NCBI RefSeq assembly: GCF_009674825.1
Contig: NZ_WKJH01000002.1
Span: 310,001 to 374,000, forward strand
Source of the DNA: Maribacter luteus
GTDB taxonomy: Bacteria > Bacteroidota > Bacteroidia > Flavobacteriales > Flavobacteriaceae
Length of the DNA stretch: 64,000 nt
Direction of reading: 5' to 3'
Within the stretch, counting starts at the first letter, position 1; each line of letters starts with the position of its first letter. Below the pieces are notes generated by a model. It saw only the letters and a program-made list of their open reading frames with translations. It was not told the origin of the DNA and did not search any database. Below, piece by piece: positions 6,642 to 24,684 of the stretch. Made by a program: the position numbers and the translations under genes.

Positions 6642-6731
6642 AAAAAAGCCGACTCCTAAAAGTCGGCTTTTCTCTTGTTGTACGGGCGGAGAGACTCGAA
6701 CTCTCACACCTCGCGGCACTAGATCCTAAGT
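6642..6731 (-). repeat. att-like direct repeat: 3' half of tRNA-Leu(UAG) plus terminator
   Basis: It is identical over 90 bp to 24564-24653. On the minus strand it contains the anticodon TAG, the 3' anticodon arm, variable and T arms, the 3' acceptor strand and the hairpin terminator (AGCCGACT / AGTCGGCT). The identity stops exactly in the anticodon loop, after which the sequence is unrelated. It cannot make a tRNA and is interpreted as the distal attachment site of the island. Confidence 0.85.
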
Positions 6732-7196
6732 TTGGCTTTTTAACCATTTTAATACATATAATTGATTTTGTGCGTCTTGTAGTTTAACTTAAGCTCATTT
6801 AAATCGATTTGAAACCATAAAATGTGTTACCAACATTTGCCAGGTTGTTTATCATTATAAAAACTAGATCAAATAACACTACCTTAAAAATAGTTTTTCC
6901 CACCAAAACCAACATAAAGGGAAACAAGGATAACAGATTAGCTATGCGGCTCCCTGAAATCGAAAACGAAATTATTGCTATATAGGTATAATACAGACCC
7001 TAAATCCCCCAGGATGAGCAAGCAGAAAAAGTAAAATCTTCCCATTCAAGACATAAACAACCGAATGGGTCGATTAGAAAGAAATATGACGAGAGGAAAA
7101 GCATTAACAGACTGAAATCGAAATAGCTTTATTCTTCTTATGCAATTTTTAAATATGAAAAGTCCTTTCTAGATAATTCAATAGGCACTTAAGGAT
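6732..7196. other. 465-bp region without a recognisable gene, just inside the island
   Basis: This stretch lies between the att-like repeat and the stop of the sulfatase gene, where an integrase gene or its tail might be expected. I read both strands and found only short open frames without recognisable motifs and no tyrosine-recombinase signature. It may hold decayed sequence. Confidence 0.4.
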
Positions 7197-8813
7197 TCAT
7201 GAATTTTGATTTTTGTTAATTTCGTTGACTTCACTTCCCCACCAATCGTCATTGGGCTGCCAATCAGGACTCAACATTTCCCTTCTTTGCTTTTCCAAGC
7301 GTGGCATGAGTTTCGTTTTATGGCTTTCCAGTCTTTTAATACGGGCAGCTTCATCCCATTCGGGGTCTTCCTTTGCATATTGGGTATTCATGGATTCCAA
7401 CCAATCCATTAATTGTGTGTATAAGGTTTCCGCTATCGCTTTGTTTTTCCCAGACAAATCGTTACCCTCCTTTAGGTCTGTATTTAAATCATACAATTCA
7501 TTGTGACCGTCTTCCCAGTAATGAATCAGTTTCCAATTGTCCTTTCTAATAATGGAAACCGGCTCCCCCCCTTGATTTCCGTAATGCGGATAATGCCAAA
7601 AAAGTGGTCTATCATCAATTTCTTCCCCGTTTAAAAGTGGCTTTAAACTAATACCATCGGCATGTGCTTCGGGTTTTAAAGGGATATTCGCCAAGTCTAA
7701 CAATGTCGGGTACAGATCTGCGCCGGAAACCGGGGTTTCTATCATACCTCCATTTTGCTTTAACCATGGTACATAAATAAAATAAGGCACCCGTAAACCG
7801 CCTTCCCATTGGTACCCTTTTCCTCCCCTTAACATCAATTGATCGGTCGAGAAGTTGTCTCCGGAAGTAACCCCCCCATTATCCGAAGTGAACACGACGA
7901 TGGTATTTTTATCCAAACCATTATCTTTCAAAGTCTTAAGGACACTTCCGACAGCCTCATCCACTTGTTCGATCAAACCGGCATACACTGGGTTATCTTG
8001 GTATTTTCGGGCAGGTAAAATACGTTCCATTTCAAAGCCGTTTTCTGCAATGCCCATTTGTTCGGCTTTGTCCCTATACCTTTTCCATTTGTCTTTGGTG
8101 GTCTGTATAGGGGCATGTACCGCATAAAAAGAGAGGTATGCCAAAAATGTGGTGTCTTTGTTTTTCTCAATGAATCCTGAAGTTTCTTTGGCCAATTTCA
8201 TGGAAAGCGACATTCCTTTTTCTTCCTCCTGGTCTTCCATTTGCGGATTGTTGAAGGGAGAGAAATAACCTCCGCTGTAGGGGCCACCTTTTTCATACCC
8301 CCCTTGATTGATATCGAATCCATGATCGGTCGGTAAGGAGTGATCCGCTGCGCCTCCTAAATGCCATTTTCCCGCAAAAAAGGTTCGGTATCCGTTCTCT
8401 TTCAATACTTCAGGCAAAGTCACATCATCATGATCCAAATGATGCTTATACTCGGGCGGTAAAAGCTTTGTGTATCGGTTCTTTTTTTTCCACTCCGATC
8501 CCGATGGCGCACCAACAAACTGTGTAATCCCATGCCTTGCGGTAAACTGTCCGTTCAACAAACTTGCTCGCGAAGGGCTACAAACGGAACACGTTGCATA
8601 GCCATTGGTGAAAACATTCCCCGATTTTGCCACGGCATCGATATTCGGGGTTTCATAATATTCGCTGCCCATAACACTTAAATCGGCATACCCCAAATCG
8701 TCTACCACGATAAAAAGGATGTTAGGTTTATTGGAATCAGAAAGATGATCTTCATTTTTGCATGATGCCGATAAAAGGGTCATCAGCGCCAGGAAATATA
8801 TTGGTCTTTTCAT
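7197..8813 (-). CDS. S1-family sulfatase, lipoprotein
   Basis: This is a formylglycine-dependent sulfatase of 538 residues that removes sulfate esters from carbohydrates. The active-site motif CSPSR is at residues 78-82, with Cys78 the residue converted to formylglycine; NILFIVVDDLG near residue 31 and FTSDNGG carry metal-binding aspartates. A signal peptide with lipobox LSASC (Cys18) places it on a membrane, probably facing the periplasm or the cell surface. It is 8 bp downstream of the GH97 gene, so the two form an operon, probably acting on a sulfated alpha-linked glycan. I cannot assign the sulfatase subfamily or substrate. The required maturase is not in this window. Confidence 0.9.
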   Translation of the reverse strand: MKRPIYFLALMTLLSASCKNEDHLSDSNKPNILFIVVDDLGYADLSVMGSEYYETPNIDAVAKSGNVFTNGYATCSVCSPSRASLLNGQFTARHGITQFVGAPSGSEWKKKNRYTKLLPPEYKHHLDHDDVTLPEVLKENGYRTFFAGKWHLGGAADHSLPTDHGFDINQGGYEKGGPYSGGYFSPFNNPQMEDQEEEKGMSLSMKLAKETSGFIEKNKDTTFLAYLSFYAVHAPIQTTKDKWKRYRDKAEQMGIAENGFEMERILPARKYQDNPVYAGLIEQVDEAVGSVLKTLKDNGLDKNTIVVFTSDNGGVTSGDNFSTDQLMLRGGKGYQWEGGLRVPYFIYVPWLKQNGGMIETPVSGADLYPTLLDLANIPLKPEAHADGISLKPLLNGEEIDDRPLFWHYPHYGNQGGEPVSIIRKDNWKLIHYWEDGHNELYDLNTDLKEGNDLSGKNKAIAETLYTQLMDWLESMNTQYAKEDPEWDEAARIKRLESHKTKLMPRLEKQRREMLSPDWQPNDDWWGSEVNEINKNQNS

Positions 8814-8821
8814 GGGCGATC

Positions 8822-10729
8822 TTATTTCTTCGATTCAGGCCTTATCCACATGCAATGGCCACCACCGGAAACCATCTTGGCCTGTACAACAGCGTCCTTC
8901 ATTACGGTTGCGGTTCGTACTTGATAAGCTTCCGGATTCGTAGTGCTGTCGGTTTCTTCGGTATCTTCATAAAAGGTAATGGTATATTCTTGGTCATCAT
9001 TCAAAAAGTCCAATGTTATATCAAGCGTACCGCCTTCGTTGTGCACCGAACCGATAAACCACTCCTCTCCATGCCGTCTTGCCGTGGAAATATACCCATC
9101 CATTTTGGCGTGCAATATTTTTGTTTCATCCCATTTTCCTACGGGCATTTCTTTAATGAATTCAAACAAATCCTGTTTTTCGGCATAAGCCTCGGGTGCA
9201 TCAGGGATACACACCAATCCGCTGAATACGATAAGGGTTCTGGCGGCTTCCGCAGTGACCGTTGTACGTAATGAATTCAGTTTTTTAGGTCCTTTTTCCC
9301 TTTCGCCTGCATTAACACTTGTAATATCGAAAACACCATTGTTCATATCCAAGGGGCCTTGTATCGCGTTGATCAATGCCATCCTAATAAAGGCTTTAGG
9401 CGTGAAAGCCCGTCTGGAATCTTGTTGTGCATGACAAAATTCCCTAGTAATGGCATTGGGGTAGGTTCTCGTTACCCCAGTGAACGGCACGGGTCCATCG
9501 TGAAAATCAATCAATAAATTACTTTCGGCACTCATACGAATGGCGTCTCTGGTAAAGGGCACGTTTGCCCCCATAAAACCGTATTTGATACCTTTGACCC
9601 CAAGGGATTTGTAATACGGGAACAAGGCATCATCACCATAATTCCCTTGTCGCCTGTCATAGTACAGAATTAGGGACACCCCTTTTTCTTTGGCATACGC
9701 CGCTACTTTATCCAAATCCAATTTATCGGACATTGTTATTTCCCCTGGTTCCACATGGGTGTACCAGGCATCGTCAATAAGGAAATATTCAATCCCATTT
9801 TTTGATGCAAAATCGATAAATCGGAAATAACTTTCGTTATCGATCCCATACGTAAATCCGTCCTTGGCTTGCAAACCATGAACCCTCCAATCCCAAAGGG
9901 TTTTTCCTGGTTTAATCCATGATGTGTTTTCAATTTGATTAGGGGCCGCCACATTCAGTGGCACCGTATTGGTAAGTAAATCACCCATTCGGTCTTCCAA
10001 AAGAATTACCCGCCAAGGTGTTGTTAAGCTCCTCTCATCGGACTCAAATCCGTTTTTTGAAACCAATTTGTTTCTTTGGTCATCATAATTGAAGTTTATG
10101 AGATCAAAACCCGGCGCACTGATCAAATCCGATTCCAAAAGCGATAAAAATTTACTTTCTTGATGCGCTACGACCAAGGGCATTTTTATTTTTTGTTTTT
10201 TGCCATTGGGCTGGGTTTTCCCCAAGTCGGCCAAAGCCACAGGTCCAAAGGGCTGCCCTTCTCCCGCCGGTGAATATAGGTTACTTGTATCGGGCAAACC
10301 GTATTCGATAAAAAAAGAAGGCTTGGCCCCTGCTGGAATTTCATCGGCCTTAAAACGAAAAGCAACACCATCATTGTAGGTTCTTACCAAAAGTGTAACA
10401 GGGACACCTTCGTAATTCAGCGATACTTCCAACTCTTTGTAATGGTCTTCAATTTCACTGAACTGCCCCCAAACGGGATTCCATGTTTTACGTACTTCAT
10501 TGATTTCAGTATCCAAAACTTCAACTTGCAAGTCGGGTAAAATGGAGATTCCTGAATTTAAAATGATGTCTTTGCCACCATCATAAAGGTTGTAGCCCAA
10601 ACCCTTATCCGTTTGATCCAATACAACTTCAATTAGGCCATCGGGGGATGTAATCGATAACTGTTTGGGTTTTTTACAATTAAAGAAAATGAGTGCAAGA
10701 CCCATTGTAACCTTTACTATTCCTTTCAT
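8822..10729 (-). CDS. GH97 glycoside hydrolase (alpha-glucosidase/alpha-galactosidase type), lipoprotein
   Basis: This 635-residue GH97 enzyme has the N-terminal beta-sandwich (ITSPDGLIEVVL at about 26-37), the TIM barrel (from about 275, LIDDAWY at 317-323), and a C-terminal beta domain. The N-terminus carries a hydrophobic stretch ending in Cys18, so it is probably a lipoprotein. GH97 contains retaining members with an Asp nucleophile and inverting SusB-like members with Gly at that place. Here the motif reads GIKYGF with Gly384, and a Glu is present at 430 (PNAITRE), which points to the inverting mechanism. It precedes the sulfatase by 8 bp in the same operon and is shorter than SusB of B. 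thetaiotaomicron. Confidence 0.88.
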   Translation of the reverse strand: MKGIVKVTMGLALIFFNCKKPKQLSITSPDGLIEVVLDQTDKGLGYNLYDGGKDIILNSGISILPDLQVEVLDTEINEVRKTWNPVWGQFSEIEDHYKELEVSLNYEGVPVTLLVRTYNDGVAFRFKADEIPAGAKPSFFIEYGLPDTSNLYSPAGEGQPFGPVALADLGKTQPNGKKQKIKMPLVVAHQESKFLSLLESDLISAPGFDLINFNYDDQRNKLVSKNGFESDERSLTTPWRVILLEDRMGDLLTNTVPLNVAAPNQIENTSWIKPGKTLWDWRVHGLQAKDGFTYGIDNESYFRFIDFASKNGIEYFLIDDAWYTHVEPGEITMSDKLDLDKVAAYAKEKGVSLILYYDRRQGNYGDDALFPYYKSLGVKGIKYGFMGANVPFTRDAIRMSAESNLLIDFHDGPVPFTGVTRTYPNAITREFCHAQQDSRRAFTPKAFIRMALINAIQGPLDMNNGVFDITSVNAGEREKGPKKLNSLRTTVTAEAARTLIVFSGLVCIPDAPEAYAEKQDLFEFIKEMPVGKWDETKILHAKMDGYISTARRHGEEWFIGSVHNEGGTLDITLDFLNDDQEYTITFYEDTEETDSTTNPEAYQVRTATVMKDAVVQAKMVSGGGHCMWIRPESKK

Positions 10730-10742
10730 CTTTTCTATTTTA

Positions 10743-11350: not shown

Positions 11351-11385
11351 TCGTCCTAAAATAGGTTGACAGTTTTTAAATTATT

Positions 11386-11425
11386 AATATTAAACCAGAG
11401 AAGCTAGCTTCTCTGGTTTAATATT
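11386..11425 (-). terminator. 40-bp perfect palindrome containing the end of the transposase gene
   Basis: The sequence is a perfect inverted repeat centred on AGCT, built from AATATTAAACCAGAGAAG and its complement. The last codons and the stop of the transposase frame are inside it. It probably acts as a terminator or as protection against read-through at the end of the IS element. Confidence 0.65.
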
Positions 11426-12091
11426 ATGTATAAAGTTAGGTGTTTTATATTTTAAACTCAAGTGCGGTCTTTTGTTATTATACGTTGTTATTGATTCTGC
11501 TATAAGCTTTTTCAACTCTTTGCCACTGTTCCATTTATATATCAAGAATTTTCCTTTCAATATACCGTTCATTCGTTCTGCCATTGCACTTTGGTAGCAA
11601 TCATACCCATCTGTCATTGATGGGGTTATATTGCATTGCTGTAGTTCTTTTTGATATATGGCCGAGCAATACTGCAATCCCCTATCGGAATGATGAATTA
11701 GATGTTTGCTCGTTAATCTATTGTTGTTCACCATTTTTACAGCCTTTACCACATTCTCTGCACTCATATCATCACTAAGATGGTACCCCATTATTTTTCT
11801 ACTATAGGCATCGGTTACCAAGGATAGGTAATGTGTCCGCTCCCTACTTTTAATGTATGTAATGTCACTGACGAAGAACTCCTCCGGTCTGCAAACTTTG
11901 ATTTCTTTCATCAGATTAGGATGTTTTCTAAGCCAAACCAAAACGGTACTTCTACCTTGAAAACCATAAGCCTTTTGCGCCTGCTTATATGTCATCTCGC
12001 CTTTTTCGACCTGATGGACAATACTTAATTTAAAGCCCAGATCTTAATCGCGTTGGGTTCGCTTGTTCACCGTAATAATTGAATGTTTCAT
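11390..12091 (-). pseudogene. IS3-family transposase, OrfA/OrfB fused by deletion, with internal stop
   Basis: From the ATG at 12091 the frame reads as the start of OrfA (MKHSIITVNKRTQRD), then hits TAA at 12046-12044. It continues in frame through the OrfA helix-turn-helix region (KAYGFQGRSTVLVWLRKH) and then jumps directly into the rve integrase core of OrfB (EEFFVSDITYI). The C-terminal part of OrfA and the N-terminal part of OrfB are missing. The DDE residues remain: Asp in SDITYI, Asp in HHSDRGLQY and Glu in AERMNGILK. From the internal ATG at 11995 a 201-residue protein could be made, but with a partial DNA-binding region it is probably inactive. Confidence 0.8.
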
Positions 12092-12169: not shown

Positions 12170-12176
12170 ATCGAAG

Positions 12177-12258
12177 TACGGGCGGAGAAACTTGAACTCT
12201 CACACCTCACGGCACTAGATCCTATGTCTAACGTGTCTACCAATTCCACAACGCCCAC
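12177..12258 (-). pseudogene. degenerate full-length tRNA-Leu(UAG)
   Basis: This 82-nt sequence aligns end to end with the intact tRNA-Leu at 24603-24684. The cloverleaf can still fold, but changes are spread over it. The acceptor has two G-U type pairs at its end, the D-arm junction is changed, and the anticodon loop reads C-A-TAG-G-A, so the nearly universal U33 is A. Similarity continues about 35 bp into the upstream flank (to about 12294), but the TATATTTG promoter element present before the intact gene is lost. It is probably a decayed duplicate left by an older insertion at this locus. It could still be transcribed. Confidence 0.7.
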
Positions 12259-12536: not shown

Positions 12537-13424
12537 TCAAGGATTCATAAACTTTGCGATTTCCTGCATGCTCAATTTGGGATTAGCGCCATCGCTTTTA
12601 GCAACCAAGGCTCCTACAGCACAACCAAAATCGATAGCCTCTTGTGGCCCTTCCCCATTTAGCAATTTGTAGATTACTGAAGCCAAAAATGAATCACCGG
12701 AGCCTACGGTATCCAAAACCTTAATTCTATATCCACTATTATAATAAAATACATTCTGGTGATACAATACAGCACCATACGCCCCTTTAGTTACACAAAT
12801 GGTTTCAATCTGAATCTGTTCGGCCAAAAACACAATCGTCTGCTCCATGGAGTTATATTTGGAACCAAGGTATTCAGCCACTTCATACAATTCGTCATCA
12901 TTGAATTTGACAAAATCGGCTTGCTGTATCAATTCCAAAAGCAGCTCCTTCGAATAATATGGTGCTCTTAAATTTACATCGAAAACCTTGTAAGGTGCTA
13001 TTTGCAATAAGCCTATCAAGGTAGTCCTTGATGTGCTATCCCTGCAGACAAGACTGCCATAAATAAAAACATCACTTTCTTTCAATTGTTTTTCATAACT
13101 ACTTCTTGATGTTATTTTATCCCAAGCAACGGGATAGGAGATATCATAGGTTGCCACCCCACTACTATTTAAATTAACTTTCACTTGACCTGTACGATAA
13201 AGTGGACTAATCTGAATCCCATCGGTATTGACCCCACGATTATTCAGAAAGTCAAGTATCCTATTTCCATATTTACCATCGCCTACACTACTTATCATAC
13301 TTACGTCTACATCAAATGACCTTAGTCGTAAAGAAACATTCAAGGGAGCTCCGCCGATCTTTGAGTGTGTTGGGAAATTATCGAATAAAACCTCACCAAA
13401 ACAAATCACATTTAATTTTTTCAT
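12537..13424 (-). CDS. PfkB-family carbohydrate kinase, probable fructokinase
   Basis: This is a cytoplasmic ribokinase-family sugar kinase of 295 residues. The N-terminal motif CFGEVLFDNFP with the GGAPLNV glycine pair binds sugar, and DTVGSGDSF near the C-terminus carries the catalytic Asp base and the anion hole. I place the start at the ATG at 13424; the longer frame adds 12 residues without family similarity. It is the last gene of the fructan operon, 78 bp after susD on the minus strand, and the expected role is phosphorylation of fructose that enters through the MFS protein. The specificity is inferred from context with GH32. Confidence 0.88.
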   Translation of the reverse strand: MKKLNVICFGEVLFDNFPTHSKIGGAPLNVSLRLRSFDVDVSMISSVGDGKYGNRILDFLNNRGVNTDGIQISPLYRTGQVKVNLNSSGVATYDISYPVAWDKITSRSSYEKQLKESDVFIYGSLVCRDSTSRTTLIGLLQIAPYKVFDVNLRAPYYSKELLLELIQQADFVKFNDDELYEVAEYLGSKYNSMEQTIVFLAEQIQIETICVTKGAYGAVLYHQNVFYYNSGYRIKVLDTVGSGDSFLASVIYKLLNGEGPQEAIDFGCAVGALVAKSDGANPKLSMQEIAKFMNP

Positions 13425-13502
13425 AAACCAAACTTTAAATAAAAGGCACGAAGAAACCACTCTCCGTGCCTAATAAACTAACTCAAACAATTTCGTCTTA
13501 TA

Positions 13503-15245
13503 TTAATATCCCGGGTTTTGCTTATAAAGACCTCCTGTAAAGTCTATTTCCCTTTGTGGAATTGGATAGTACTCATCCCTTCCGGCAGTAAATTCTGCAT
13601 TTGACAAGAAATCCCTTTTGGTTTTTTCCTCGGTTAGATAAGCATTCAATACTTCTGCAGCCTCTCCCCATCTTACCAAATCAAAGAAACGAGGTCCTTC
13701 CATCCCAAATTCCAACCTTCTTTCAAATTTTAATGCTTTCCAAGCATATTCCTTATTTGGAAAAGAAAGATATTCCTGTACATTATAAATATCCGTAGCA
13801 CCGGCATCGATTTGACGTTGGGTACTTGCAGCTGCACGTGCCCTAACCTGATTGACCAAGGGCAAAGCCTCATCCCAACGATCCAATTGTATCAAGGCCT
13901 CTGCCTTAAAAAGTAAGATATCGGCATATCGAATAAAATCAACATTCTTTGAAGTACCCACAAACGGCCCTTCCTTCACGTAACAGGAGCAATCCGGTGC
14001 TTGTTGTTCCTTCATATTCCCAAAATAACCATAAACCCCTGGATCCCTGGCCCAAGTAAAGTTATAAACCATATCACCTGTAGTATTCACTGTATTCCTA
14101 TATTTAAAAGGCCTTCCCGGGACTCCTACCGTATGATCCAACCTAGGGTCAACCGTTAATCCTGTAGCTGGCGTTACGATTCCATCCTCATTAACAGCAG
14201 TGAGTATATCCGTATCGTTAAAACTATCCAATAAAGGTAGTCCAGCTTCATCGGTTCTAAACGCGTTTACCATGTTCTGACTAGCCAAATGAAACCCACA
14301 ACAACCATATAACGCAGATCCATGTGGGGAATTAAGTCCTGTAACAAAACTCACCCTACTAACCTTGGTACCATCATTTATAGAAAATTGGGCGGCCCAA
14401 ATAGATTCAGGACCATTATCAAAACCATCTAAAAAGTTGTTGCCATAATCTGCCTCAAGACCTGCCACAACCTCATCAGCATAAACAATTACCTCTTGAA
14501 GTCGCTCAGGGTTGATCGCAGTGACCTGATGTTGCTCGTTTTGCTCATAAGCTTGGTAAAGCCTAAGTTTGGCCATATATGCCGCGGCTGCATTTTTATC
14601 TGCCCTACCAACCTCATCTTGTGATAAGGGAAGATTGTTATAGGCAAAAATGAAATCTTCCGCTATGGTATTCCACAACTCATCGTTCGGCACATCATTG
14701 GAAACCGCCGCTATTTCTTCTTGGGTCAGACCTTCCTTGATATAGGGTATTTTCTTGAACAACAGCTTCAACATAAAATGGGAATGTGCTCTCAAAAATC
14801 TAAGTTCAGCTTGTCTCAAGGTCTTGTTTTCATATTCTGCATCGGGAATATCGTTAATTACGGTCAAAGCAAAATTAGCCCTTGAAATGGCCTTGTAGTA
14901 ATTGGTCCATGTTCTTGGTGTCATCCAGTCGCCATAATCAGGAATCGTTAAATTATATTGCTCATAGCGATCTACCACATCAACATCACCACGGCCTCCA
15001 CCTCCTTTATATGCATCATCGGAACGCACACTTCCATACACCCATTGATGGGTCAAAGGCCCTATCATCTCATCATTGGCAATCCCTGCATAAGCTGCTA
15101 CCACCAATGCTTCCGCATTTTCCGCAGTTGCTACGTTCTCATTTGATAGCACGCCCTCTGGTTCATATTCTAAAAAATCCTTGTCACAAGAAACCAGAAA
15201 TAATGTAACCAGCATTCCTAATATTAAAAATTTATTTTTTTTCAT
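13503..15245 (-). CDS. SusD/RagB-family outer-membrane glycan-binding lipoprotein
   Basis: This is the surface lipoprotein that captures glycans and acts as lid of the SusC channel. It has 580 residues, a lipoprotein signal ending FLVSC (Cys20) followed by the acidic stretch DKDFLEYEPEG typical of surface-exported lipoproteins, TPR-like helices in the N-terminal half and the conserved C-terminal region with VNQVRARA, ERRLEFGMEG and RFFDLVRWG. It lies 12 bp downstream of the susC homologue and is in the same transcript. The fructan specificity is inferred from the GH32 and kinase genes around it. Confidence 0.95.
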   Translation of the reverse strand: MKKNKFLILGMLVTLFLVSCDKDFLEYEPEGVLSNENVATAENAEALVVAAYAGIANDEMIGPLTHQWVYGSVRSDDAYKGGGGRGDVDVVDRYEQYNLTIPDYGDWMTPRTWTNYYKAISRANFALTVINDIPDAEYENKTLRQAELRFLRAHSHFMLKLLFKKIPYIKEGLTQEEIAAVSNDVPNDELWNTIAEDFIFAYNNLPLSQDEVGRADKNAAAAYMAKLRLYQAYEQNEQHQVTAINPERLQEVIVYADEVVAGLEADYGNNFLDGFDNGPESIWAAQFSINDGTKVSRVSFVTGLNSPHGSALYGCCGFHLASQNMVNAFRTDEAGLPLLDSFNDTDILTAVNEDGIVTPATGLTVDPRLDHTVGVPGRPFKYRNTVNTTGDMVYNFTWARDPGVYGYFGNMKEQQAPDCSCYVKEGPFVGTSKNVDFIRYADILLFKAEALIQLDRWDEALPLVNQVRARAAASTQRQIDAGATDIYNVQEYLSFPNKEYAWKALKFERRLEFGMEGPRFFDLVRWGEAAEVLNAYLTEEKTKRDFLSNAEFTAGRDEYYPIPQREIDFTGGLYKQNPGY

Positions 15246-15257
15246 GATTTTCTTTTA

Positions 15258-18200
15258 TTAAAAATTCACATTAAGTCCTAAAGAAAGTACTGTGGGAACC
15301 GGAATATTATCTACCGTGGTACGTTCTGGATCAGAGCCTATATAATCTTTCGGAGTAAACCAGAATAGGTTTTCCCCTTGAAAATAAATGCGTAAACCGG
15401 TCATTCCCCCTAATTTTCCAATTAAATCCTCGGGCAAGGAGTACCCCAATTGTAAATTCCTTATTTTGAAATACGAATTCTTCCTATATAAATAATCAGA
15501 AGTTCTAAGATCATTAAAGGCTAGTGAGAGTGATGGAATATCAGAATCGGTATTAGTTGGGGTCCATGCATCAAGAACACCAAGCCCGGCATTCTCCCGA
15601 CCCTGTGTGAAATTGTTCCATAAGATATATGGATCCTGTCCTATTCTACCCGCAACACCTGATCCAAAAACAGAGAAATCAAAATTACGGTATGCCAAAT
15701 CTACACGAATACCATATTCCAGATCTGGCAATGTATTTCCTATAAAATCACGATCATCGGAATCAATAACGTTATCTCCGTTAAGGTCTTGGAATTTTAA
15801 GCCTCCAGGTCGCGCACCTACTTGTGCCGGACTACTATCTATATCATCTTGACTTTGGAAAAGACCATCTGTTTTATATCCAAAGATCGAAAACTGGGAA
15901 TGACCTAATATTGAATTTTCCGCGGTACCTGGAAAACCAGCCCTAACTTCTTCTGGTAAAAACGTAATCTCATCTTTGAAAGCACCGAAGTTTGTGGATA
16001 CGCCTAATGTAAATCCACTTTCCCATGCCTTGGAATACGCAACTGAAAGCTCCCATCCTTTTGTTTCGGTAGTTGCTCCGTTTAAAACCCGCTGTTGGCC
16101 TTCACCAATTACAGAGGCAATAGGTGGAGTAATAAGTATATCACTGGTCTTTCTTGTAAAATAGTCAAACGTACCTACAACAGCATTTTGAAAAAGTCCA
16201 AAATCAATACCATAGTTAAATTCTTTGGTAGTTTCCCACTTTAAAGAAGGGTTCGCCGCTTGAATGGAAACAAAGCCTGATGGTAATGTTCCACTATTGT
16301 TACCCCCTAGATCATAAGCAGTCCCAACATTATAATACTGGTTAAAGAAATCTGGCACATATTGATCTTGATTAGGCCCATATCTTGATTCGTACAAACC
16401 AAATCTTGCCAAATCACCAATAGACTGGTTACCTACCTCACCATAACCTGCCCTTAGTTTTAAATCAGAAACAACACCTTCATCATTAAAGAAATCTTCC
16501 CTACTAATTCTCCAACCAATTGTTGCCGCAGGGAAAACACCGTATCTGTTATCTTCCCCAAATCTAGAAGAACCATCCCTACGTACTGTAACTGAAGCCA
16601 AATATTTATCTGCAAATGCATAATTGAGTTTTGCGAACTGAGATAACAAACTACTGCCACTAGAGCTTCCTGTATTGGTTTTTGCCCCTGTTGCCGCATC
16701 CAAGACAAAATAGGACTCTGTTTCTACCGCAAAACCATCAGCAATAGCCGTTACCGAATCAAAATCATTCTTTATCGATTCAGCACCAACCAATACGCCA
16801 AGCCTATGCTCTCCCAGTTCAAGGTTATAATTCAAGGTATTGGTAAAAACAACGCTGGTAAATTTATTGGTATCCAAGATCAACCTATTATTGCTTCGGT
16901 TAACAAAACCATTGGATACCGTAGGTTCAATGTCCTTACTTTTAAAATCATTATAATCCAGACCAATGCTAGTCCTAAAAGTTAAATTGTCTATTATTTG
17001 GAGTTCGGCAAATACATTTCCAAAAATATTTGTCCTTTCCGTGTTGTCCCATCTATTCAAATACTGCATCAAAACAGGGTTGTTACGGTCCGAATACCCT
17101 GCCCCCAATGGCCCACCATAATTACCATTACTATCGAACAAAGGAATGGTTGGTGCCAAGCTAATTGCCAATGATGGTGTTGGGGCACTACCTATATCTG
17201 TAGATCCCAATGTTTCATCCGAAGTGGTAAAAACCGTATTGACCCCAACCTTTAATTTATCATTGAACAATTTGAAATTGGAATTCAATTTGCCTGAAAA
17301 CCTTTCGTAACCCGTATACTTTAAAATGCCTGTATTCTTAAGGTGCCCCAAATTAATGAGATGAAACGATTTATCAGTGCCCCCCGAAATGGATACTTCA
17401 TTATTGAAAGTATAACCTGTTTCATACGCTTCATTCTGCCAATCCGTATCTCCCACCGGCACGCTGACATCACCACCAACATAAGGCTGGAGCGTTACAC
17501 TGTTCAGCACTGGATTATTAAAATCGCCATTCCAATCAAAATTATAAATCTCGCCATATCCACCGGTCGGATCAGCACCATCATTGACAGACGCCCTCCA
17601 TAAAGCTTCTCCTCGCTGAATGGAATTCAACATATCGTATCGCTGTTTTTTTTCAGACTGCACAGAAATATTCGAATTTATAGTTACCCTGTACTTTTCA
17701 TCTCCTCCTGATTTAGAACTATTTTTGGTGGTTACGATAATTACCCCATTACCTGCCCTTGATCCGTAAATGGAAGAGGCTGAAGCATCTTTCAACACTT
17801 GAACTGATTCTATGGTACTGGGATTAAGACCTGAAAAAACTTCTTGCCTAACCGTTGGAACCCCATCAATAACATAAAGAGGATCGTTATTTCCCAAGGT
17901 GGTGACACCCCGAATCAAAATTCGACTACTGGTACCGTTCGGGTTACCTGATTTTTCAACAAAAAGTCCAGGCACCCTACCTTGTAAGGCCTGCATGGCA
18001 TTACCCGAACTTAAACTTTGACCTTCCACAGGACCAAGCTCTACAACTGTAACAGCTCCTGTTAAATCGGCTTTTCTTTCAGTTGTATAACCGGTTAGCA
18101 CTATCTCATCTAACAATTGCGCATCTGCCTGTAAAACAATATTAAAAGAAGTTTGACCATTTACCTGGACCTCAACTTTTAAAAAGCCAACATAACTTAC

Positions 18201-18410
18201 CGAGAGTGTCGCATCCGCAGGTACTTTATCAAGTGTGAAGTTCCCGTCAAAATCCGTCGTTGTACCAATGGTCGTCCCAGATACAACCACAGAGGCACCT
18301 GGCAGTGGCATACCATCATCCTGGGAGGTCACCGTACCATTTATCCGTTCTTGGGCCAATAACCCCAAGGGAACAAATGTCATTAGTAATAAAAAGAGTT
18401 TTAGTTTCAT
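15258..18410 (-). CDS. SusC/RagA-family TonB-dependent outer-membrane transporter
   Basis: This 1050-residue protein imports oligosaccharides across the outer membrane with energy from TonB. It has a signal peptide (residues 1-19), a carboxypeptidase-D-like regulatory domain (about 20-105, INGTVTSQDDGMPLPGASV), the plug domain with LVIDGVPT-like (LYVIDGVPT) and GNGVIIVTTK motifs (about 110-230), and a long beta-barrel ending in LSLGLNVNF. It is paired with the SusD gene 12 bp downstream and preceded by GH32 with a 13-bp gap, so the operon is tightly packed. Confidence 0.95.
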   Translation of the reverse strand: MKLKLFLLLMTFVPLGLLAQERINGTVTSQDDGMPLPGASVVVSGTTIGTTTDFDGNFTLDKVPADATLSVSYVGFLKVEVQVNGQTSFNIVLQADAQLLDEIVLTGYTTERKADLTGAVTVVELGPVEGQSLSSGNAMQALQGRVPGLFVEKSGNPNGTSSRILIRGVTTLGNNDPLYVIDGVPTVRQEVFSGLNPSTIESVQVLKDASASSIYGSRAGNGVIIVTTKNSSKSGGDEKYRVTINSNISVQSEKKQRYDMLNSIQRGEALWRASVNDGADPTGGYGEIYNFDWNGDFNNPVLNSVTLQPYVGGDVSVPVGDTDWQNEAYETGYTFNNEVSISGGTDKSFHLINLGHLKNTGILKYTGYERFSGKLNSNFKLFNDKLKVGVNTVFTTSDETLGSTDIGSAPTPSLAISLAPTIPLFDSNGNYGGPLGAGYSDRNNPVLMQYLNRWDNTERTNIFGNVFAELQIIDNLTFRTSIGLDYNDFKSKDIEPTVSNGFVNRSNNRLILDTNKFTSVVFTNTLNYNLELGEHRLGVLVGAESIKNDFDSVTAIADGFAVETESYFVLDAATGAKTNTGSSSGSSLLSQFAKLNYAFADKYLASVTVRRDGSSRFGEDNRYGVFPAATIGWRISREDFFNDEGVVSDLKLRAGYGEVGNQSIGDLARFGLYESRYGPNQDQYVPDFFNQYYNVGTAYDLGGNNSGTLPSGFVSIQAANPSLKWETTKEFNYGIDFGLFQNAVVGTFDYFTRKTSDILITPPIASVIGEGQQRVLNGATTETKGWELSVAYSKAWESGFTLGVSTNFGAFKDEITFLPEEVRAGFPGTAENSILGHSQFSIFGYKTDGLFQSQDDIDSSPAQVGARPGGLKFQDLNGDNVIDSDDRDFIGNTLPDLEYGIRVDLAYRNFDFSVFGSGVAGRIGQDPYILWNNFTQGRENAGLGVLDAWTPTNTDSDIPSLSLAFNDLRTSDYLYRKNSYFKIRNLQLGYSLPEDLIGKLGGMTGLRIYFQGENLFWFTPKDYIGSDPERTTVDNIPVPTVLSLGLNVNF

Positions 18411-18423: not shown

Positions 18424-20049
18424 TTAGTTAATATTCAGTTCATTTACTTCTAAAAAATCAAGAACAAAGTCTTCGCTTGCCGACTCTATTGAAAGTGTCT
18501 CGAATGGCGCATTGGGAAAGAAAATCTCAGTCATTACCGTAGACCCTTCATCAAAAAACAATTCTATTGATGTCTTATCAAGGAGGATTGTCCCGGACAA
18601 CATTCCATTGTCGGAAAATCGTTTGGCTTTGCTGACCTTATTCGAAAACCTATCGGAAAACCCTGTTTTACCGGAGGTATCACGATCAATGAAAAAACTA
18701 TTATCCCCCCCATTGTATCCAAAGGATAATTCGTCTCCTTGTTTATTGGAAAGTTTAAAAGTGAAACTATCTTTCTTTACATCTGAAATACTGAAACTTA
18801 TTGCAGTTCGTGAGAGATTTACCTTTTCTGAATCAAGAAGTGCCGACAGCCCATTCACGGCAATTCTTTCTTTCTTATACTTTACACCTTTATAAGCGTC
18901 TAATTCATCAACCGGGTCAAATGCCAACCTATAGGTTTCCGCATCCTTGATCAATTTCACTTCCCTTGCCACGGTCATTGCACTGCGCCAAGTCTCTGTT
19001 GGGACTTCATTGGCATATTCCCAATTGGACATCCAGCCCATATAAAATTTTCCACCGTTCTTAGAGATGATGTTGGAAAAGGTGACCCCGGCATAATTGT
19101 CCTTTCCAAAATCTATCCAAAATTTCTGCCCTTTGTTCAGGACAGTTTCAAACCCCTTATCAATGGTGAATTTTCGACCATCAAAGTCACCAATAAAATA
19201 TTGCGTAGCACTACCTCCATTGGGACCACCAGGATTTACACTAACATAAAGCACCCATTTGGTTTCATTTGTACCCGCTACAGGCATCTGGAAAAGATCC
19301 GGACATTCCCAAACACCACCATGTGTTCCGAGATCCTTTTTCATATCCCCTCCAAAATCCGACATCAGTTCCCATTTTTTAAGATCCTTTGAACCATAAA
19401 ACATCACTTTGTCATGGGCAGCCAAAACCATAACCCATTTTTCATGTTCCTCGTCCCAGGATACCTTGGGGTCCCTGAAATCCCTAATTCCGGGATTTTC
19501 AATAACCGGATTCCCTTCATATTTTGTCCAAGTAAGCCCTTCATCCAAGGAATAGGCTATTGCCTGTGACTCGACATCGATCCCTTCAGCTTTTTCAATT
19601 TCCATATTATGATAAGTGAACATGGCGATTATCGGTACTTGGCCTTCTTTCCCAAAGCCCGAGGAATTTTGTAAATCAACTACCGCACTTCCAGAAAAAA
19701 TATATCCCATATCATCAGGGTATAATGCAATAGGCTGCTCTTTCCATTTTACCATATCGGTACTTACTGCATGACCCCAATGCATGGGCCCCCATTTATT
19801 ACCGTCTGGATAATGTTGAAAATACAAATGGTAATACCCATTGTAATGGAACATCCCATTGGGATCGTTCATCCATCCTACCTTAGGTGTAAAATGGTAA
19901 TTTGGGCGATACAGCTCTTCTTCGGCATCTAAAGGACTTTCTTGTTGTACAACAACACCCTTGTTTTCTTTTTCCCGATGTTCCTTGCATGCAAAAATCA
20001 TACACAGGCCGGCAATGGCAAGTACTAATTTTAATCTATGTTTTTTCAT
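18424..20049 (-). CDS. GH32 fructan hydrolase (levanase/inulinase/fructosidase type), lipoprotein
   Basis: This 541-residue glycoside hydrolase family 32 enzyme releases fructose from beta-fructans or sucrose-type linkages. All three catalytic motifs are intact: WMNDPNG (59-65) with nucleophile Asp62, FRDPK (191-195) with transition-state stabiliser Asp193, and WECPD with acid/base Glu248. A five-bladed propeller is followed by a C-terminal beta-sandwich (from about 390). A lipobox at Cys21 indicates membrane anchoring, facing the periplasm or outside. It is second in the operon, 38 bp after the MFS gene. Whether levan, inulin or short fructans are the substrate cannot be decided from sequence. 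Confidence 0.93.
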   Translation of the reverse strand: MKKHRLKLVLAIAGLCMIFACKEHREKENKGVVVQQESPLDAEEELYRPNYHFTPKVGWMNDPNGMFHYNGYYHLYFQHYPDGNKWGPMHWGHAVSTDMVKWKEQPIALYPDDMGYIFSGSAVVDLQNSSGFGKEGQVPIIAMFTYHNMEIEKAEGIDVESQAIAYSLDEGLTWTKYEGNPVIENPGIRDFRDPKVSWDEEHEKWVMVLAAHDKVMFYGSKDLKKWELMSDFGGDMKKDLGTHGGVWECPDLFQMPVAGTNETKWVLYVSVNPGGPNGGSATQYFIGDFDGRKFTIDKGFETVLNKGQKFWIDFGKDNYAGVTFSNIISKNGGKFYMGWMSNWEYANEVPTETWRSAMTVAREVKLIKDAETYRLAFDPVDELDAYKGVKYKKERIAVNGLSALLDSEKVNLSRTAISFSISDVKKDSFTFKLSNKQGDELSFGYNGGDNSFFIDRDTSGKTGFSDRFSNKVSKAKRFSDNGMLSGTILLDKTSIELFFDEGSTVMTEIFFPNAPFETLSIESASEDFVLDFLEVNELNIN

Positions 20050-20087
20050 ACTCTAAATAAATTGGGTTTAAATCTTACACATTTACA

Positions 20088-21440
20088 CTATTCAATCACA
20101 TTGCCTTTTTTAGTATTTGCACCTTCTGATTTACTTAAGGATTTGCTCAAAGCCTCCAAGGAAACCCCCTTTGTTTCTGGCATAACAAAGGCTACAAAGA
20201 GCAATTGCAAAAACATCATAAAGGCAAAAAAGGCAAATACGGTTCCTGCACCGATCGATGAGAACAACACAGGGATCAATGAGGGGATCACTGCCGCCAA
20301 TACCCAATGAACCGAGCTTCCGAAGGATTGACCGGAGCCTCTTAAGTGATTGGGGAAAATTTCGGAAATGAACACCCAGATTACAGTACCCTGCCCTACG
20401 GCATGTGCGGCAATGAAAAGGAACAGGAATATGGCTACGGACATTCCTTCCCAACCAAAGAAGAAAGCGCAAGACACCAAGGTGAGCGACACTATATATC
20501 CAAAAGAGCCTATATACATTAGTTGTTTGCGACCGAACCTATCAATTAGAAATATACCCACAAGGGTAAAAAGTAGGTTGGTGACACCTATTCCAATACT
20601 GCTCAATAAAGCCGTACTTTCTCCCAGACCGGCCTCTTCCAATATTCTAGGGGCGTAGTATAAAAAAGCATTTATACCAGATGCTTGATTAAAAAAGGCC
20701 ATACAAAAAGCAAGAATCAGTGCAAAACGGTATTTCTTCATGAAAATATTATCTCCCGGTGCCTTATTTTCGTTCTCCTGATTAATTTCCATCATCATTT
20801 CCTCCGCATTCTGATCAGGGTTTATCACATTAAGCACATTAAGAGCTTCTTCGGTTCGAAGCTTTGTCAAAAGCCAACGAGGGCTCTGTGGCACGGTGGT
20901 GACAAATAGTGTATAAATTACAGCAGGAATGGCCTCTACCCCAACCATCCATCGCCAAGCATTTTCCCCAATACCACTTAACAGGTAATTGGATAAAAAG
21001 GCCACCAATATTCCAAAAACGATATTGAATTGGTACAGACCTACTAGTTTCCCCCTATCCTTGGCGGGTGAAATTTCAGAAATATATGCGGGAGCGGCTA
21101 TTGTGGATGTCCCTACACCCAACCCTCCCAAAAACCTAAAGAAAGCAAAGGTTATAGGGTCATTTGCAAATGCAGAACCTAAAGCGGAAACGGTATATAA
21201 AACCCCGATCCAAAAAAGCGTTTTTTTTCTACCGAGCCTATTGGTTGGTATTCCCCCTAATAATGCACCTACTACCGTACCCCATAAAGCCATGGCCATA
21301 ACCACGGTTCCGTGGAACACATCTGAAGTTCCCCATAACATCTGTAATTTTTTGTCCGCTCCAGAAATCACTACGGTATCAAAACCAAATAAAAATCCTG
21401 CCAAAGCCGCAGTAATAGACCAAACCAATATCTTCCTCAT
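20088..21440 (-). CDS. MFS sugar transporter (sugar porter family), probable fructose importer
   Basis: This is a 450-residue inner-membrane proton symporter with twelve predicted helices. Sugar-porter signatures are present: GGIPTNRLGRKK after helix 2, PQSPRWLL before the central loop, IDRFGRKQ in the second half and VMPETKG at the end of helix 12. It is the first gene of the fructan operon after the 231-bp regulatory region. The natural substrate is the monosaccharide freed by GH32, which the PfkB kinase then traps. It resembles xylose, glucose and fructose porters, so the fructose assignment rests on context. Confidence 0.88.
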   Translation of the reverse strand: MRKILVWSITAALAGFLFGFDTVVISGADKKLQMLWGTSDVFHGTVVMAMALWGTVVGALLGGIPTNRLGRKKTLFWIGVLYTVSALGSAFANDPITFAFFRFLGGLGVGTSTIAAPAYISEISPAKDRGKLVGLYQFNIVFGILVAFLSNYLLSGIGENAWRWMVGVEAIPAVIYTLFVTTVPQSPRWLLTKLRTEEALNVLNVINPDQNAEEMMMEINQENENKAPGDNIFMKKYRFALILAFCMAFFNQASGINAFLYYAPRILEEAGLGESTALLSSIGIGVTNLLFTLVGIFLIDRFGRKQLMYIGSFGYIVSLTLVSCAFFFGWEGMSVAIFLFLFIAAHAVGQGTVIWVFISEIFPNHLRGSGQSFGSSVHWVLAAVIPSLIPVLFSSIGAGTVFAFFAFMMFLQLLFVAFVMPETKGVSLEALSKSLSKSEGANTKKGNVIE

Positions 21441-21671
21441 ATCACAATTATTAAATACGAAGACTATATTATTACAAATTATTTAAGAGTTATTTTACCA
21501 ATGTTACAGTTTATTATGATTTCGTTCACATTTCCACAAACAATATTAACCTACTGAATATCAGTATACTAACACAAACACCTTAACAAAGAAGAATTAA
21601 TAGGTTACACTTTTGTAACACGTAAGTTTAAAATTGATACATGATTTAAAGAGCGGAAAGATTAAAATGCC
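21441..21671 (-). promoter_or_regulatory. promoter/operator region of the fructan operon
   Basis: This 231-bp gap between the sensor gene and the first operon gene must hold the operon promoter. It contains a perfect inverted repeat GTTACA-N4-TGTAAC (21604-21619) and one more GTTACA at 21503-21508, which are candidate sites for the AraC-type domain of the hybrid regulator. I do not see a clean TAnnTTTG element near the MFS start. Confidence 0.35.
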
Positions 21672-24416
21672 CTAAAATGATTTTTTATAGGCCCCTGGAG
21701 TAACACCATATTTACTTTTAAAGGCGGTAGAAAAATAATTCGGGGAAGAAAAACCTGTACTATACCCTATTTCAGCAATGGATTTGTCGGTCGTTTCTAG
21801 CATAGATTTCGCATTTTCCAATCTAAAATTGGAAATGTAATCGCTAACACTGATACCCAACATAGCTTTGACCTTTCTGTACAATTGAACCCTGGAGATA
21901 TTCAGTGCATCGGCCAGGTTCTCAACTGAAAAACCTGCATTGTCCAAATTGTCCTTTATTTGTTTATTCAATTCGCGAACGAATAATTGTTCCGGGTTTC
22001 TAAAAGATTGCACCTGGTCTATTTTATGAATATTATTGGTATAATAATACCTTAATTTTTCCCGATTATAAAGGAGCGACTTAATAGATTGCGTTAAGAT
22101 CGAATAGTTAAACGGCTTGGTCAAATATAAATCGGCCCCACTTTGAAGCCCTTTTATAAAAGATTCCTTATTCCCCAAGGCGGTCAATATGATTACTGGA
22201 ATATGTGAGGTACGCAAATCGTTTTTTAATATTTCGCAAATCTCAAAACCATTCTTAACGGGAAGGTTCACATCACATAAAATAACATCGGGAACATGCT
22301 CGAACGCCAACTCGGTACCATCCGTTCCATCAGACAAAACGATATCATATTCGACACTAAGCTTGTTCTTAAGAAAGAAACTCAAGTCCCTATTATCCTC
22401 TATCAAAAGAATGCAATACCTCTCTTCCCCAGTATTGGTGTCCAATTTAATATGGGTATCATCCATTGTAATATCTTCCGAAAAATTGATCAAAGTCGAA
22501 TCGACTATCTCCGGGTCCACTACAATTTGATCTTCATTGAAATGGGTGTTCCCTTTAAACAAGGTAACAATGAATTCAGTTCCATTATGGGATTTTACCT
22601 CGATTTTCCCTAGATGAAGCTCAACAAACTGCTTACTTAAATGCAAACCTACCCCTGAACTGTTTTTCCTATTATTCGATCCCTTAAAAAAAGGGGTGAA
22701 TACATTTTTCAATTCATTTTCCGGTATTCCTATTCCGTTGTCCTTAAAATGGATGCTGATACTGCTTTCTTCAAAATTATCATGGATTTCAATATCTATT
22801 CTACCATTATCCGGTGTAAATTTAAAGGCATTGGACAATAGGTTAAAATAAACCTTATCCATTAAATTTCTATCGATAAACAAATCCAACTCCTCATTAT
22901 TGGAACTAATATTGAAATTAATGCCCCTCTTTTTCGCTTCTCCTTTGAATTCTTTATAAATATTATTGGAAAACTTATAAATATTGGTTTTTGAGGCCCT
23001 TACATTAAACTTTTGATCCTCGACTTTTCTGAAATCCAACAAACTATTGATCAACCGAAGAAGGCGATTTGAATTATTCTGAATCAGTTCAATTTCAAAG
23101 CCGGTTTTATTCCCCTTTTTTTTGTCCCATTCCCTTAACGACTCAATTGAACTCATAATTAATGTAATGGGAGTTTTGAACTCGTGGGATAGTCCAGTAA
23201 AAAAATTCATTTTTGCCTCATTACTTTCCTTGACCTCATTAGCGATCTTTTCGATTTGATTTCTTTGGACCGTGATTTTCCTATTGGTAATTTCTAACTG
23301 CCTATTTTTCCTGACAATAGCGATTTTTGAATATATACTATAAATGGCCAAGCTTAGAATAATCAAAGAAAAACCAAGAATAATCTTCAAGATATTACTT
23401 TGTGAGTAGTACAGTTGTTCTTGTCTTTTTATAGCTGATACCTGTGATTCAAGGAGTGTCTGATGTTCATTTATTTTATTCAATTGGTTTTGCATTATTT
23501 CAGCATTGAACCGATCTATTACAGTAGTATTAAGGATTATGTTCTTAGGCACATCCTCATTGTTCAATAGTCCCAAGGCCGTTTTTATGGCCTCATCGCC
23601 CCCGGTAGGATATAATATCGTAGCTGCAAGCATGCCGTCTTTGACTAATTGTATTCCACCATTTGGGCCATTTAATCCGTCAACCCCAATAATCTTGATA
23701 TTATTTTCTATACCTAAGTTTCTTGCGACCTCCCAAGCACCCTTTGCCATTCTGTCGTTATGGGCGAAAACATAGTCGACAGGTCCGGTACGTAATAACA
23801 TTTCCCGAAAACTTTCAGTAACGGATTCCTTCTCCCAATCACCTTCAATAGCTCCACAAAACTCAATATTGCCAAACTTATCAATTACCTGATGAAAACC
23901 AAGACTTCTTTCCTTGGCCGGGGAAGACCCTTTAAGTCCCTTTATCTCTATTACCCTTAAAGAATCACGAATATTGGAAACAATGATTTTAGCTGCATTG
24001 CGGCCAACCTCAATATTATCGGCACCAACATAAACGGTATATTTTTCGTTATCCGTTTTTCTATCGACCAATACCACAGGAATTCCGGAATTCATCGCTT
24101 CTTCCACGATAGGGGTAATAGGCTTTGATTGAATTGGGGAAACGATAATAATATCCACACTATCAGCAATGAACTTCCTTAACTGTGTTATCTGTCGCTG
24201 AACATCATAATTGGCATTTGATATGTCTAAAGTGATATTAGGATATAAGGATGCCCGTAATTGCATGGCATTATTCATAGATTGCCTCCATTCATCATCT
24301 ACCATCGCTTGGGAGAATCCAATACGTATCCCATCTTTTTCATTCCGTGAAGAACACGAGAAAAGAAGAAAAATCAGAAATAAAAATAAAATTGGGTTGA
24401 TTCTTTTGGGACTCAT
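21672..24416 (-). CDS. hybrid two-component system sensor/regulator with periplasmic sugar-binding domain
   Basis: This 914-residue one-protein signalling system has a signal or lipoprotein-like N-terminus (Cys21), a periplasmic LacI/RbsB-type sugar-binding domain (about 28-310), one transmembrane helix (about 341-362), a HisKA domain with phospho-His411 in GLSHEFKTP, an HATPase domain (DNGIGIP, GVGLHLSK), a receiver domain with Asp715 (ILCDVNLP), and an AraC-type helix-turn-helix domain at the C-terminus. Fructan loci of Bacteroides use this same architecture, where the sensor binds free fructose (BT1754). It is upstream of the operon in the same direction and probably activates it. Confidence 0.93.
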   Translation of the reverse strand: MSPKRINPILFLFLIFLLFSCSSRNEKDGIRIGFSQAMVDDEWRQSMNNAMQLRASLYPNITLDISNANYDVQRQITQLRKFIADSVDIIIVSPIQSKPITPIVEEAMNSGIPVVLVDRKTDNEKYTVYVGADNIEVGRNAAKIIVSNIRDSLRVIEIKGLKGSSPAKERSLGFHQVIDKFGNIEFCGAIEGDWEKESVTESFREMLLRTGPVDYVFAHNDRMAKGAWEVARNLGIENNIKIIGVDGLNGPNGGIQLVKDGMLAATILYPTGGDEAIKTALGLLNNEDVPKNIILNTTVIDRFNAEIMQNQLNKINEHQTLLESQVSAIKRQEQLYYSQSNILKIILGFSLIILSLAIYSIYSKIAIVRKNRQLEITNRKITVQRNQIEKIANEVKESNEAKMNFFTGLSHEFKTPITLIMSSIESLREWDKKKGNKTGFEIELIQNNSNRLLRLINSLLDFRKVEDQKFNVRASKTNIYKFSNNIYKEFKGEAKKRGINFNISSNNEELDLFIDRNLMDKVYFNLLSNAFKFTPDNGRIDIEIHDNFEESSISIHFKDNGIGIPENELKNVFTPFFKGSNNRKNSSGVGLHLSKQFVELHLGKIEVKSHNGTEFIVTLFKGNTHFNEDQIVVDPEIVDSTLINFSEDITMDDTHIKLDTNTGEERYCILLIEDNRDLSFFLKNKLSVEYDIVLSDGTDGTELAFEHVPDVILCDVNLPVKNGFEICEILKNDLRTSHIPVIILTALGNKESFIKGLQSGADLYLTKPFNYSILTQSIKSLLYNREKLRYYYTNNIHKIDQVQSFRNPEQLFVRELNKQIKDNLDNAGFSVENLADALNISRVQLYRKVKAMLGISVSDYISNFRLENAKSMLETTDKSIAEIGYSTGFSSPNYFSTAFKSKYGVTPGAYKKSF

Positions 24417-24566
24417 GAAAATTGAGTTTATCCTGTAAATTTAAAGAAATTGAGAATACCCTTAAAACCTTGAATACTTTAATTCTAATCGAATATGCAA
24501 TTGATTTACAAAGTACATACAACAAGCATCTAATAACCGATGCTACCCAAGTTTACCAAAAACAAA

Positions 24567-24592
24567 AAAGCCGACTCCTAAAAGTCGGCTTT
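24567..24592 (-). terminator. terminator of tRNA-Leu
   Basis: The stem AAAGCCGACT / AGTCGGCTTT lies just after the 3' end of the tRNA and is followed by T residues on the minus strand. The same hairpin is duplicated at the left end of the island. Confidence 0.8.
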
Positions 24593-24602
24593 TCTCTTGT
24601 TG

Positions 24603-24684
24603 TACGGGCGGAGAGACTCGAACTCTCACACCTCGCGGCACTAGATCCTAAGTCTAGCGTGTCTACCAATTCCACCACGCCCGC
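24603..24684 (-). tRNA. tRNA-Leu (anticodon UAG)
   Basis: This 82-nt class II tRNA has acceptor GCGGGCG paired with CGCCCGT (first pair G-U), D arm GTGGAATTGGTAGACAC, anticodon arm CTAGA-CTTAGGA-TCTAG with anticodon TAG and a normal U33, a long variable arm, and T arm GAGAG-TTCGAGT-CTCTC. CCA is not encoded. It is the intact tRNA at the right boundary of the island and is transcribed toward the island. Confidence 0.95.

Follow-up and report, generated by a model that had tools for sequence, protein, structure and literature searches.

A decayed, composite and probably tRNA-integrated island in Maribacter with a putative fructan utilization locus

Three copies of tRNA-Leu around two blocks of genes

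The window, by which we mean the whole stretch of 64,000 nucleotides analysed here from the genome of Maribacter luteus (G000), contains an intact tRNA-Leu(UAG) gene on the minus strand (24602-24684; copy C), a displaced 3' half of this gene (fragment A) and a third, internal copy (B), and the region between A and C falls into two segments (Table 1). The A-B segment of 5.5 kb holds a sulfatase, a GH97 glycoside hydrolase and a transposase fragment, at the end of which 42 bases (11385-11426) are perfectly self-complementary. The B-C segment of 12.4 kb holds PfkB, SusD, SusC, GH32, an MFS transporter and an HTCS regulator. This is the full gene set of a fructan PUL, with the SusC/SusD pair, the hydrolase, the kinase, the sugar transporter and the regulator, and presumably the layout of a fructan utilization locus, a set that we take to mark fructan use; read from the GH32, its substrate is probably fructan.

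Table 1. Features of the tRNA-Leu locus and its flanking genes, with positions in the window
Feature	Position	Strand	Basis
KDO transferase (Glycos_transf_N), left flanking core gene	4442..5677	+	family scan; match in 11/12 genus genomes, own included
Fragment A: displaced tRNA-Leu 3' half and terminator; attR	6642..6731	-	repeat identity, 3'-fragment comparison
attR arm; carries the GGTAACACATTT motif and resembles the G066 island at its integrase-proximal end	6732..6931	-	alignment, tile scan
Sulfatase	7197..8813	-	family scan; dS 0.11 to G003
GH97 glycoside hydrolase	8822..10729	-	family scan; dS 0.105 to G003
Transposase fragment (rve), probable insertion-sequence relic	11390..11995	-	family scan
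Copy B: full-length degenerate tRNA-Leu, internal boundary	12176..12258	-	tRNA call, repeat search, Rfam; counterpart in G003
PfkB sugar kinase, fructan PUL	12537..13460	-	family scan
SusD	13503..15245	-	family scan
SusC (TonB-dependent receptor)	15258..18410	-	family scan
GH32 (fructan/sucrose hydrolase family)	18424..20049	-	family scan
MFS sugar transporter	20088..21440	-	family scan
Hybrid two-component regulator (HTCS), periplasmic sugar-binding domain	21672..24416	-	family scan
Possible degenerate arm site, attL side	24541..24563	-	weak basis
Copy C: intact tRNA-Leu(UAG) and terminator; attL	24564..24684	-	repeat, tRNA searches, locus comparison
M20 peptidase, right flanking core gene	24807..26201	+	family scan, genus search

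The earlier note on this DNA had described a catabolic cargo without a visible integrase, and this description holds: family scans, a PF00589 search and a home-made profile found no tyrosine integrase in the island, no RteC or conjugation gene was among the island genes scanned, and no relics of an integrase, a relaxase, a primase or VapE were found in this island or in that of its congener G003, which counts against the reading as an island given below. Matches to integrase and mobilization genes in the gaps at 6300-7200 and 10730-12600 stayed at chance level (best E 0.013). An integrase elsewhere in the genome that would use the same att core, for which the earlier note had advised a search, was not found, the best matches to the integrase of a related island (G032, see below) reaching 26-27% identity. 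On contigs C6, C8, C23 and C24, four further integrase matches of the genome are no more than ~1.1 kb away from tRNA genes.

The repeat that links A and C is exact over 90 of 90 bases, as had been claimed (6642-6731 and 24564-24653; BLAST E ~1e-41 within the window). It spans tRNA positions 32-83 and the hairpin terminator, and its first base is the last of the 5' anticodon stem. A whole-genome search with the tRNA region gave three strong matches (E 1e-38 or better), all inside the window, and elsewhere three further partial matches of 30-35 bases each, so that the repeat is not the general multicopy element that the earlier note had allowed for. A phage origin of the tRNA region was rejected, as none of 352 phage records covers 80% of the tRNA query; among the 20 phage matches listed, many lie on annotated tRNA-Leu genes and some on unannotated or hypothetical features. 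Because the identity of A and C takes in a spacer between tRNA and terminator that is absent from the six congeners compared, it suggests that the repeat formed very recently or underwent gene conversion. The flank left of A also bears a weak likeness to the window's flank on the far side of C (score 38, the maximum of 200 shuffles being 37), which suggests the same, would also fit a larger duplication and counts against the reading as an island.

Copy B, on the same strand as the intact gene, is of full length and 90% identical to it over 117 bp (12176-12292). Its terminator differs from that of the intact copy, the upstream TTTG...TATATTTG box, which we take to be the Bacteroidetes promoter motif, is missing, and an A instead of a T stands directly 5' of the anticodon. 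ARAGORN classes B as a tRNA; the Rfam tRNA model gave no match to B reaching E 1 at the settings under which copy C scores 58.1 bits, and B is not among the results of the genome-wide tRNA search, in which 150 of 297 candidates in this genome were scored. Owing to this internal copy, what had been described as a single 18-kb unit bounded by two repeats must be read as two segments, and the single unit is also at odds with G003, which holds both blocks apart and has no fragment A. A full tRNA at this place is not predicted by one simple integration, and B is the weakest point of the reading as an island; with its leader, it may be the mark of recombination between tRNA copies. It might be supposed, as the earlier note had allowed, that homologous recombination between tRNA-Leu copies, or with a circular PUL segment carrying a tRNA copy, put the 12.4-kb PUL between B and C, and that A is a separate scar. 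This would account for a B that is full length, with part of the leader and in the same orientation, and for the counterpart of B that G003 has at the same PUL junction, matching its own C over tRNA and leader. However, it explains neither the arm DNA beside A, nor the loci with 3'-half fragments alone, nor the relatives with integrase and relaxase, all of which are described below, and we consider it unlikely. While the B of G003 matches its own C, that of the window is degenerate, which may reflect gene conversion.

A recurrent insertion site between the KDO-transferase and M20 genes

Among the genus genomes, the window's own included, a search with the flanking proteins found the M20 peptidase in 12 of 12 and the KDO-transferase in 11 of 12, and the two lie on one contig in seven, namely G000 and the Maribacter congeners G001-G006. 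The gap between them is 1.7 kb in G001, 3.8 kb in G004, 18.7 kb in G006, 19.1 kb in the window, 26.5 kb in G005, 43.8 kb in G002 and 78.4 kb in G003. The empty site that the earlier note had suggested looking for in relatives is thus present at the level of genes in G001, whose 1.7 kb contain a single tRNA; at the nucleotide level, the score of the left flank against G001 is reached by 3 of 200 shuffles. Against G004, G006, G003 and G005 the score was reached by 141, 43, 91 and 88 of 200 shuffles, respectively; we found no clear alignment of the left flank of A to the empty site or to the other congeners, which counts against the reading as an island.

In G003 both cargo blocks are present beside this tRNA as well, the sulfatase-GH97 block with 97% nucleotide identity and B plus the fructan PUL with 91.6%, but ~19 kb apart and with ~42 kb of additional DNA on the left; no A-like fragment was found in G003 away from B, which is a further point against. 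Between the window and G003, dS (computed with our own script) is 1.04-2.66 and near saturation for the flanking genes (degT, KDO-transferase, M20 and YjdM), whereas in the cargo it is 0.105 for GH97, 0.11 for the sulfatase, 0.155 for PfkB, 0.16 for GH32, 0.24 for SusD and MFS, 0.43 for SusC and 0.60 for HTCS. Exchange of the cargo therefore postdates the split of the two species, and horizontal acquisition of the cargo is supported by this contrast as well as by the trees described below. Judging from these values, it probably arrived in pieces of different age. Along the PUL (12537-24416), dS to G003 varies about fourfold (0.155-0.60), in the manner of a mosaic.

Such unevenness, as in recombination mosaics, would be compatible with a long-standing variable region where cargo comes and goes through ordinary homologous recombination among strains, without any role for the tRNA. 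So would the 44-kb insert of G002, in which the four proteins scanned are not PUL genes. Across the islands, the family scan covered 10 of the 51 island proteins aligned. What bears against such a region is the position of the extra DNA across the family. From a search of 149 family genomes with the flanking proteins we picked by eye 24 additional ones, each of another genus, where the two genes share a contig and strand and are separated by at most ~110 kb; genomes that lacked a match, or had the genes on separate contigs, at a great distance or on opposite strands, were left out. Together with the seven Maribacter loci, the window among them, this gives 31 loci, and the following counts concern linked loci only. 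tRNA-Leu stands between KDO-transferase and M20 in all 31, in the same orientation and with its 3' end toward KDO-transferase. The gap ranges from 0.4 to 110 kb (below 5 kb in 10 loci, 7-110 kb in 21), and in 30 of 31 loci the extra DNA is mostly on the 3' side of the tRNA, which lies within ~1.1 kb of M20; in G152, the sole locus with more DNA on the other side, it is 2.6 kb away. In Flavobacteriaceae, as far as the linked loci examined show, this is a hotspot of recurrent insertion. The one-sided position of the DNA, the 3' fragments of the same register in five genomes and the arm DNA at A all speak against a variable region in which the tRNA plays no part, and we regard that explanation as very unlikely.

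These fragments are same-strand tRNA 3' ends starting at position 29-32, found in the window, G006, G145 (two), G066 and G032, with one weak case in G118; six opposite-strand matches all lie beyond tRNA position 83, in the terminator region. G066 also carries a tRNA 5' piece (positions -23 to 48), which counts against simple integration. An island integrase is present in two of the 31 loci, G066 and G032 (home-made profile, with which PF00589 searches agree), ~0.2 kb inside the fragment in each case, and is followed by an RteC-family gene in G066 and by heavy-metal genes in G032; that none of this type was found in the other 29 counts against the reading as an island. The neighbourhood of the integrase includes a type I restriction system with the RteC gene in G066, and mercury/heavy-metal efflux genes in G032. 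A second class of repeat, comprising the tRNA-Leu end from position 51-67 and the following sequence, occurs in G002, G130, G087, G153, G113, G136 and G106, mostly ~80-130 bp downstream of the tRNA (1.2 kb in G153, with further copies in G002 and G106), and may represent scars of another integrase class.

The DNA just inside A resembles an arm of one of the integrase-bearing islands. The 200 bp inside A align to the 200 bp inside the fragment of G066, of another genus and at its integrase end, with a score of 100 (maximum of 300 shuffles, 46), and when 2,552 tiles of the window were scanned, the four best lay at A (up to 99), the next unrelated tile scoring 44. The two arms have in common the GGTAACACATTT motif, which is tandem in G066; behind the tRNA terminator, G066, G032 and G003 have tandem motifs that resemble it. 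Five other fragment ends were compared with A, and that of G066 alone is a clear match; for the others the score is reached by 36 (G032), 174 and 266 (G145) and 10 (G006) of 300 shuffles, which again counts against the reading as an island. Matches of the C-side arm are weak (reached by 12, 40, 58 and 236 of 300 shuffles for G066, G003, G032 and G002, respectively). Since its arm matches the integrase end of G066, we regard A as a true attR that no longer has its integrase beside it. One might read A as a tRNA 3' end that was copied recently within the genome, by duplication or gene conversion, and not as the displaced end of the host gene; the exact identity with its peculiar spacer, the weak likeness of the flanks beyond both copies and the lack of an A-like fragment in G003 are in keeping with this. 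A copy of this kind, however, would not be expected to have, directly inside it and in the expected place, DNA like the integrase-proximal end of another island, and we hold it to be quite unlikely. Site-specific integration into the tRNA 3' half, as the earlier note had argued, is instead well supported by G001, a relative that is empty at the level of genes, the 3'-side DNA in 30 of 31 loci, the 3' fragments in four other genomes, the arm DNA at A, and the integrase beside the fragment in G066 and G032.

The fructan locus beside tRNA genes of other genomes

A SusD with at least 75% identity is present in 21 genomes besides the window among 397 family genomes, which together with G003 gives 23 loci; outside these, eleven more SusD matches have 48-51% identity (ten further genomes and a second match in G125). 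A tRNA gene lies on the HTCS side within 7 kb in 14 of the 23 loci and within 2.7 kb in 10, both limits having been set after the distances were known. There is none in the fetched stretch at eight loci, and in G002 the tRNA is on the other side. Eight tRNA species are involved, namely Leu-UAG, Leu-CAA, Arg-CCT, Arg-TCG, initiator-type CAT, elongator-type CAT, His and Ala, some of the anticodons having been read by eye. The tRNA 3' end faces the PUL in 16 of 16 cases (copy B of two genomes left out), against 3 of 6 in control windows (by eye). In 40-kb windows a tRNA is present at 15 of 23 PUL loci and in 6 of 20 matched controls (p 0.033; 0.06 without G000 and G003), where the controls are 20 windows from 18 genomes hand-chosen among the SusD matches listed, and several of the 23 loci are related and hence not independent. 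An earlier control of 20-kb SusD-centred windows (20 windows, 0 tRNAs) was discarded as too narrow, as the HTCS-side tRNAs lie 10-17 kb from SusD. Because presence alone is modestly enriched, the link between PUL and tRNA rests on position, orientation and the anatomy of the elements.

Five of the 14 tRNA-adjacent loci end on the far side in a displaced 3' fragment (G000, G003, where it is B, G222, G255 and G360); in the other nine none was found within the fetched stretch. The one in G360 is an initiator-type Met fragment behind PfkB (E 1.6e-9). An integrase stands beside the PUL in three of 23 loci. In G255 the order is tRNA-Ala, VapE-like/DUF5906, DnaG-like primase, NikA-like, relaxase, Fic, PUL and integrase, behind which follows a displaced piece of tRNA-Ala that starts at position 33 (77% over 94 columns, E 8e-14). 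In G222 the order is tRNA-Arg(CCT), integrase, PUL, VapE-like, primase, relaxase and a tRNA-Arg 3' end (exact 24 bp, E 3e-5). In G183 the integrase is beside HTCS, and there is no tRNA.

The tree of five concatenated PUL proteins groups the window and G003 with G222 (100% SH-aLRT) and then with G246, and places the congener G002 elsewhere, whereas the M20 tree unites the three Maribacter (G000, G003 and G002); a single Maribacter clade in the PUL tree is rejected (p-AU 5e-5, in a quick tree and with the identities known beforehand). Among the genomes searched, the nearest PUL relative outside the genus is thus G222, where the PUL sits in an apparently intact integrative mobilizable element (IME) at tRNA-Arg, and G255 has a second apparently intact element with the same PUL at tRNA-Ala. 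Because this nearest relative sits in an NBU-like IME, the PUL of the window probably arrived on one as well.

Proposed history and relation to known elements

We suggest that one or more integrative elements inserted into the 3' half of tRNA-Leu(UAG), as the geometry of the repeats indicates, through recombination by a putative tyrosine integrase. Integration would have rebuilt the tRNA at C and pushed the old 3' half to A, with DNA of the element's arm staying just inside A, and integrase and transfer genes would have been lost later, leaving a remnant with attL and attR. Its cargo would be composite, with the sulfatase/GH97 block between A and B and the fructan PUL, which probably came on an NBU-like IME, between B and C. 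On balance, a decayed, composite, tRNA-integrated island with fructan genes of a kind that travels on NBU-like elements is probably the right description, although it leaves unexplained copy B, the exact 90-bp identity and the absent bounding fragments at nine of the 14 tRNA-adjacent fructan loci. More tentatively, and with slightly less than even confidence, we speculate that a single lineage of fructan PULs has travelled repeatedly on NBU-like mobilizable elements that target several different tRNA genes in Flavobacteriaceae, inserting with its regulator end toward the tRNA 3' end, and that one of its landings, now decayed, is seen at the tRNA-Leu locus of Maribacter, a widespread hotspot where such remnants stack. 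A specific feeding capability of marine Flavobacteriaceae, probably fructan use, would then be tied to a class of mobile elements of which apparently intact members exist in relatives, and turnover of catabolic gene sets at the KDO-transferase/M20 locus would help explain differences in glycan use between close species.

NBU elements carry a primase, and the elements of G255 and G222 resemble the NBU1-type IME of Bacteroides in having integrase, primase, relaxase and a VapE-like gene; the island in the window differs in lacking all of these genes, its own tyrosine integrase and relaxase or mobilization genes included, and in its fructan cargo. In the parts of the literature available to us, NBU1 is described as having a tyrosine integrase and a MobP relaxase and as inserting at the 3' end of a tRNA-Leu gene (PMC5704250, PMC10865867). 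Its core is said to overlap this 3' end but not to reach into the anticodon loop (PMC10865867), unlike the repeat in the window, which starts at the anticodon stem. A cis-mobilizable element that has lost integration and transfer genes but keeps attL and attR is termed a CIME, and accretion of several pieces at one site has been described for such elements, as far as the text seen goes (PMC5704250). The island, known here from its sequence, is alike in keeping both att sites without integrase and transfer genes, although its attL-side arm is weakly recognisable, and differs by the internal copy B.

RteC is linked to CTnDOT. A similarity to CTnDOT-like ICEs lies in the arm of A, which matches that of the G066 island, whose integrase precedes an RteC-family gene, whereas the island genes scanned in the window include no such gene. 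In gut Bacteroidetes, 47 PULs with SusC/SusD are reported on mobile elements, in the portion of the source seen (PMC6907783); here the hosts are marine Flavobacteriaceae, and one PUL family lies beside eight tRNA species. We found no description of a fructan PUL on tRNA-integrated elements of marine Flavobacteriaceae in titles and abstract openings, which covered the matching papers in part and few subscription ones. Riemerella belongs to the same order as Maribacter. Its 10K genomic island lies at tRNA-Arg, has an IntN1-like integrase and is reported both to integrate and to excise; it differs from the island in the window by its 53-bp repeat and its 10 kb, and the part of the source seen mentions no PUL (PMC6764341). 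The island at the Maribacter tRNA-Leu gene is of a known kind, with new members.
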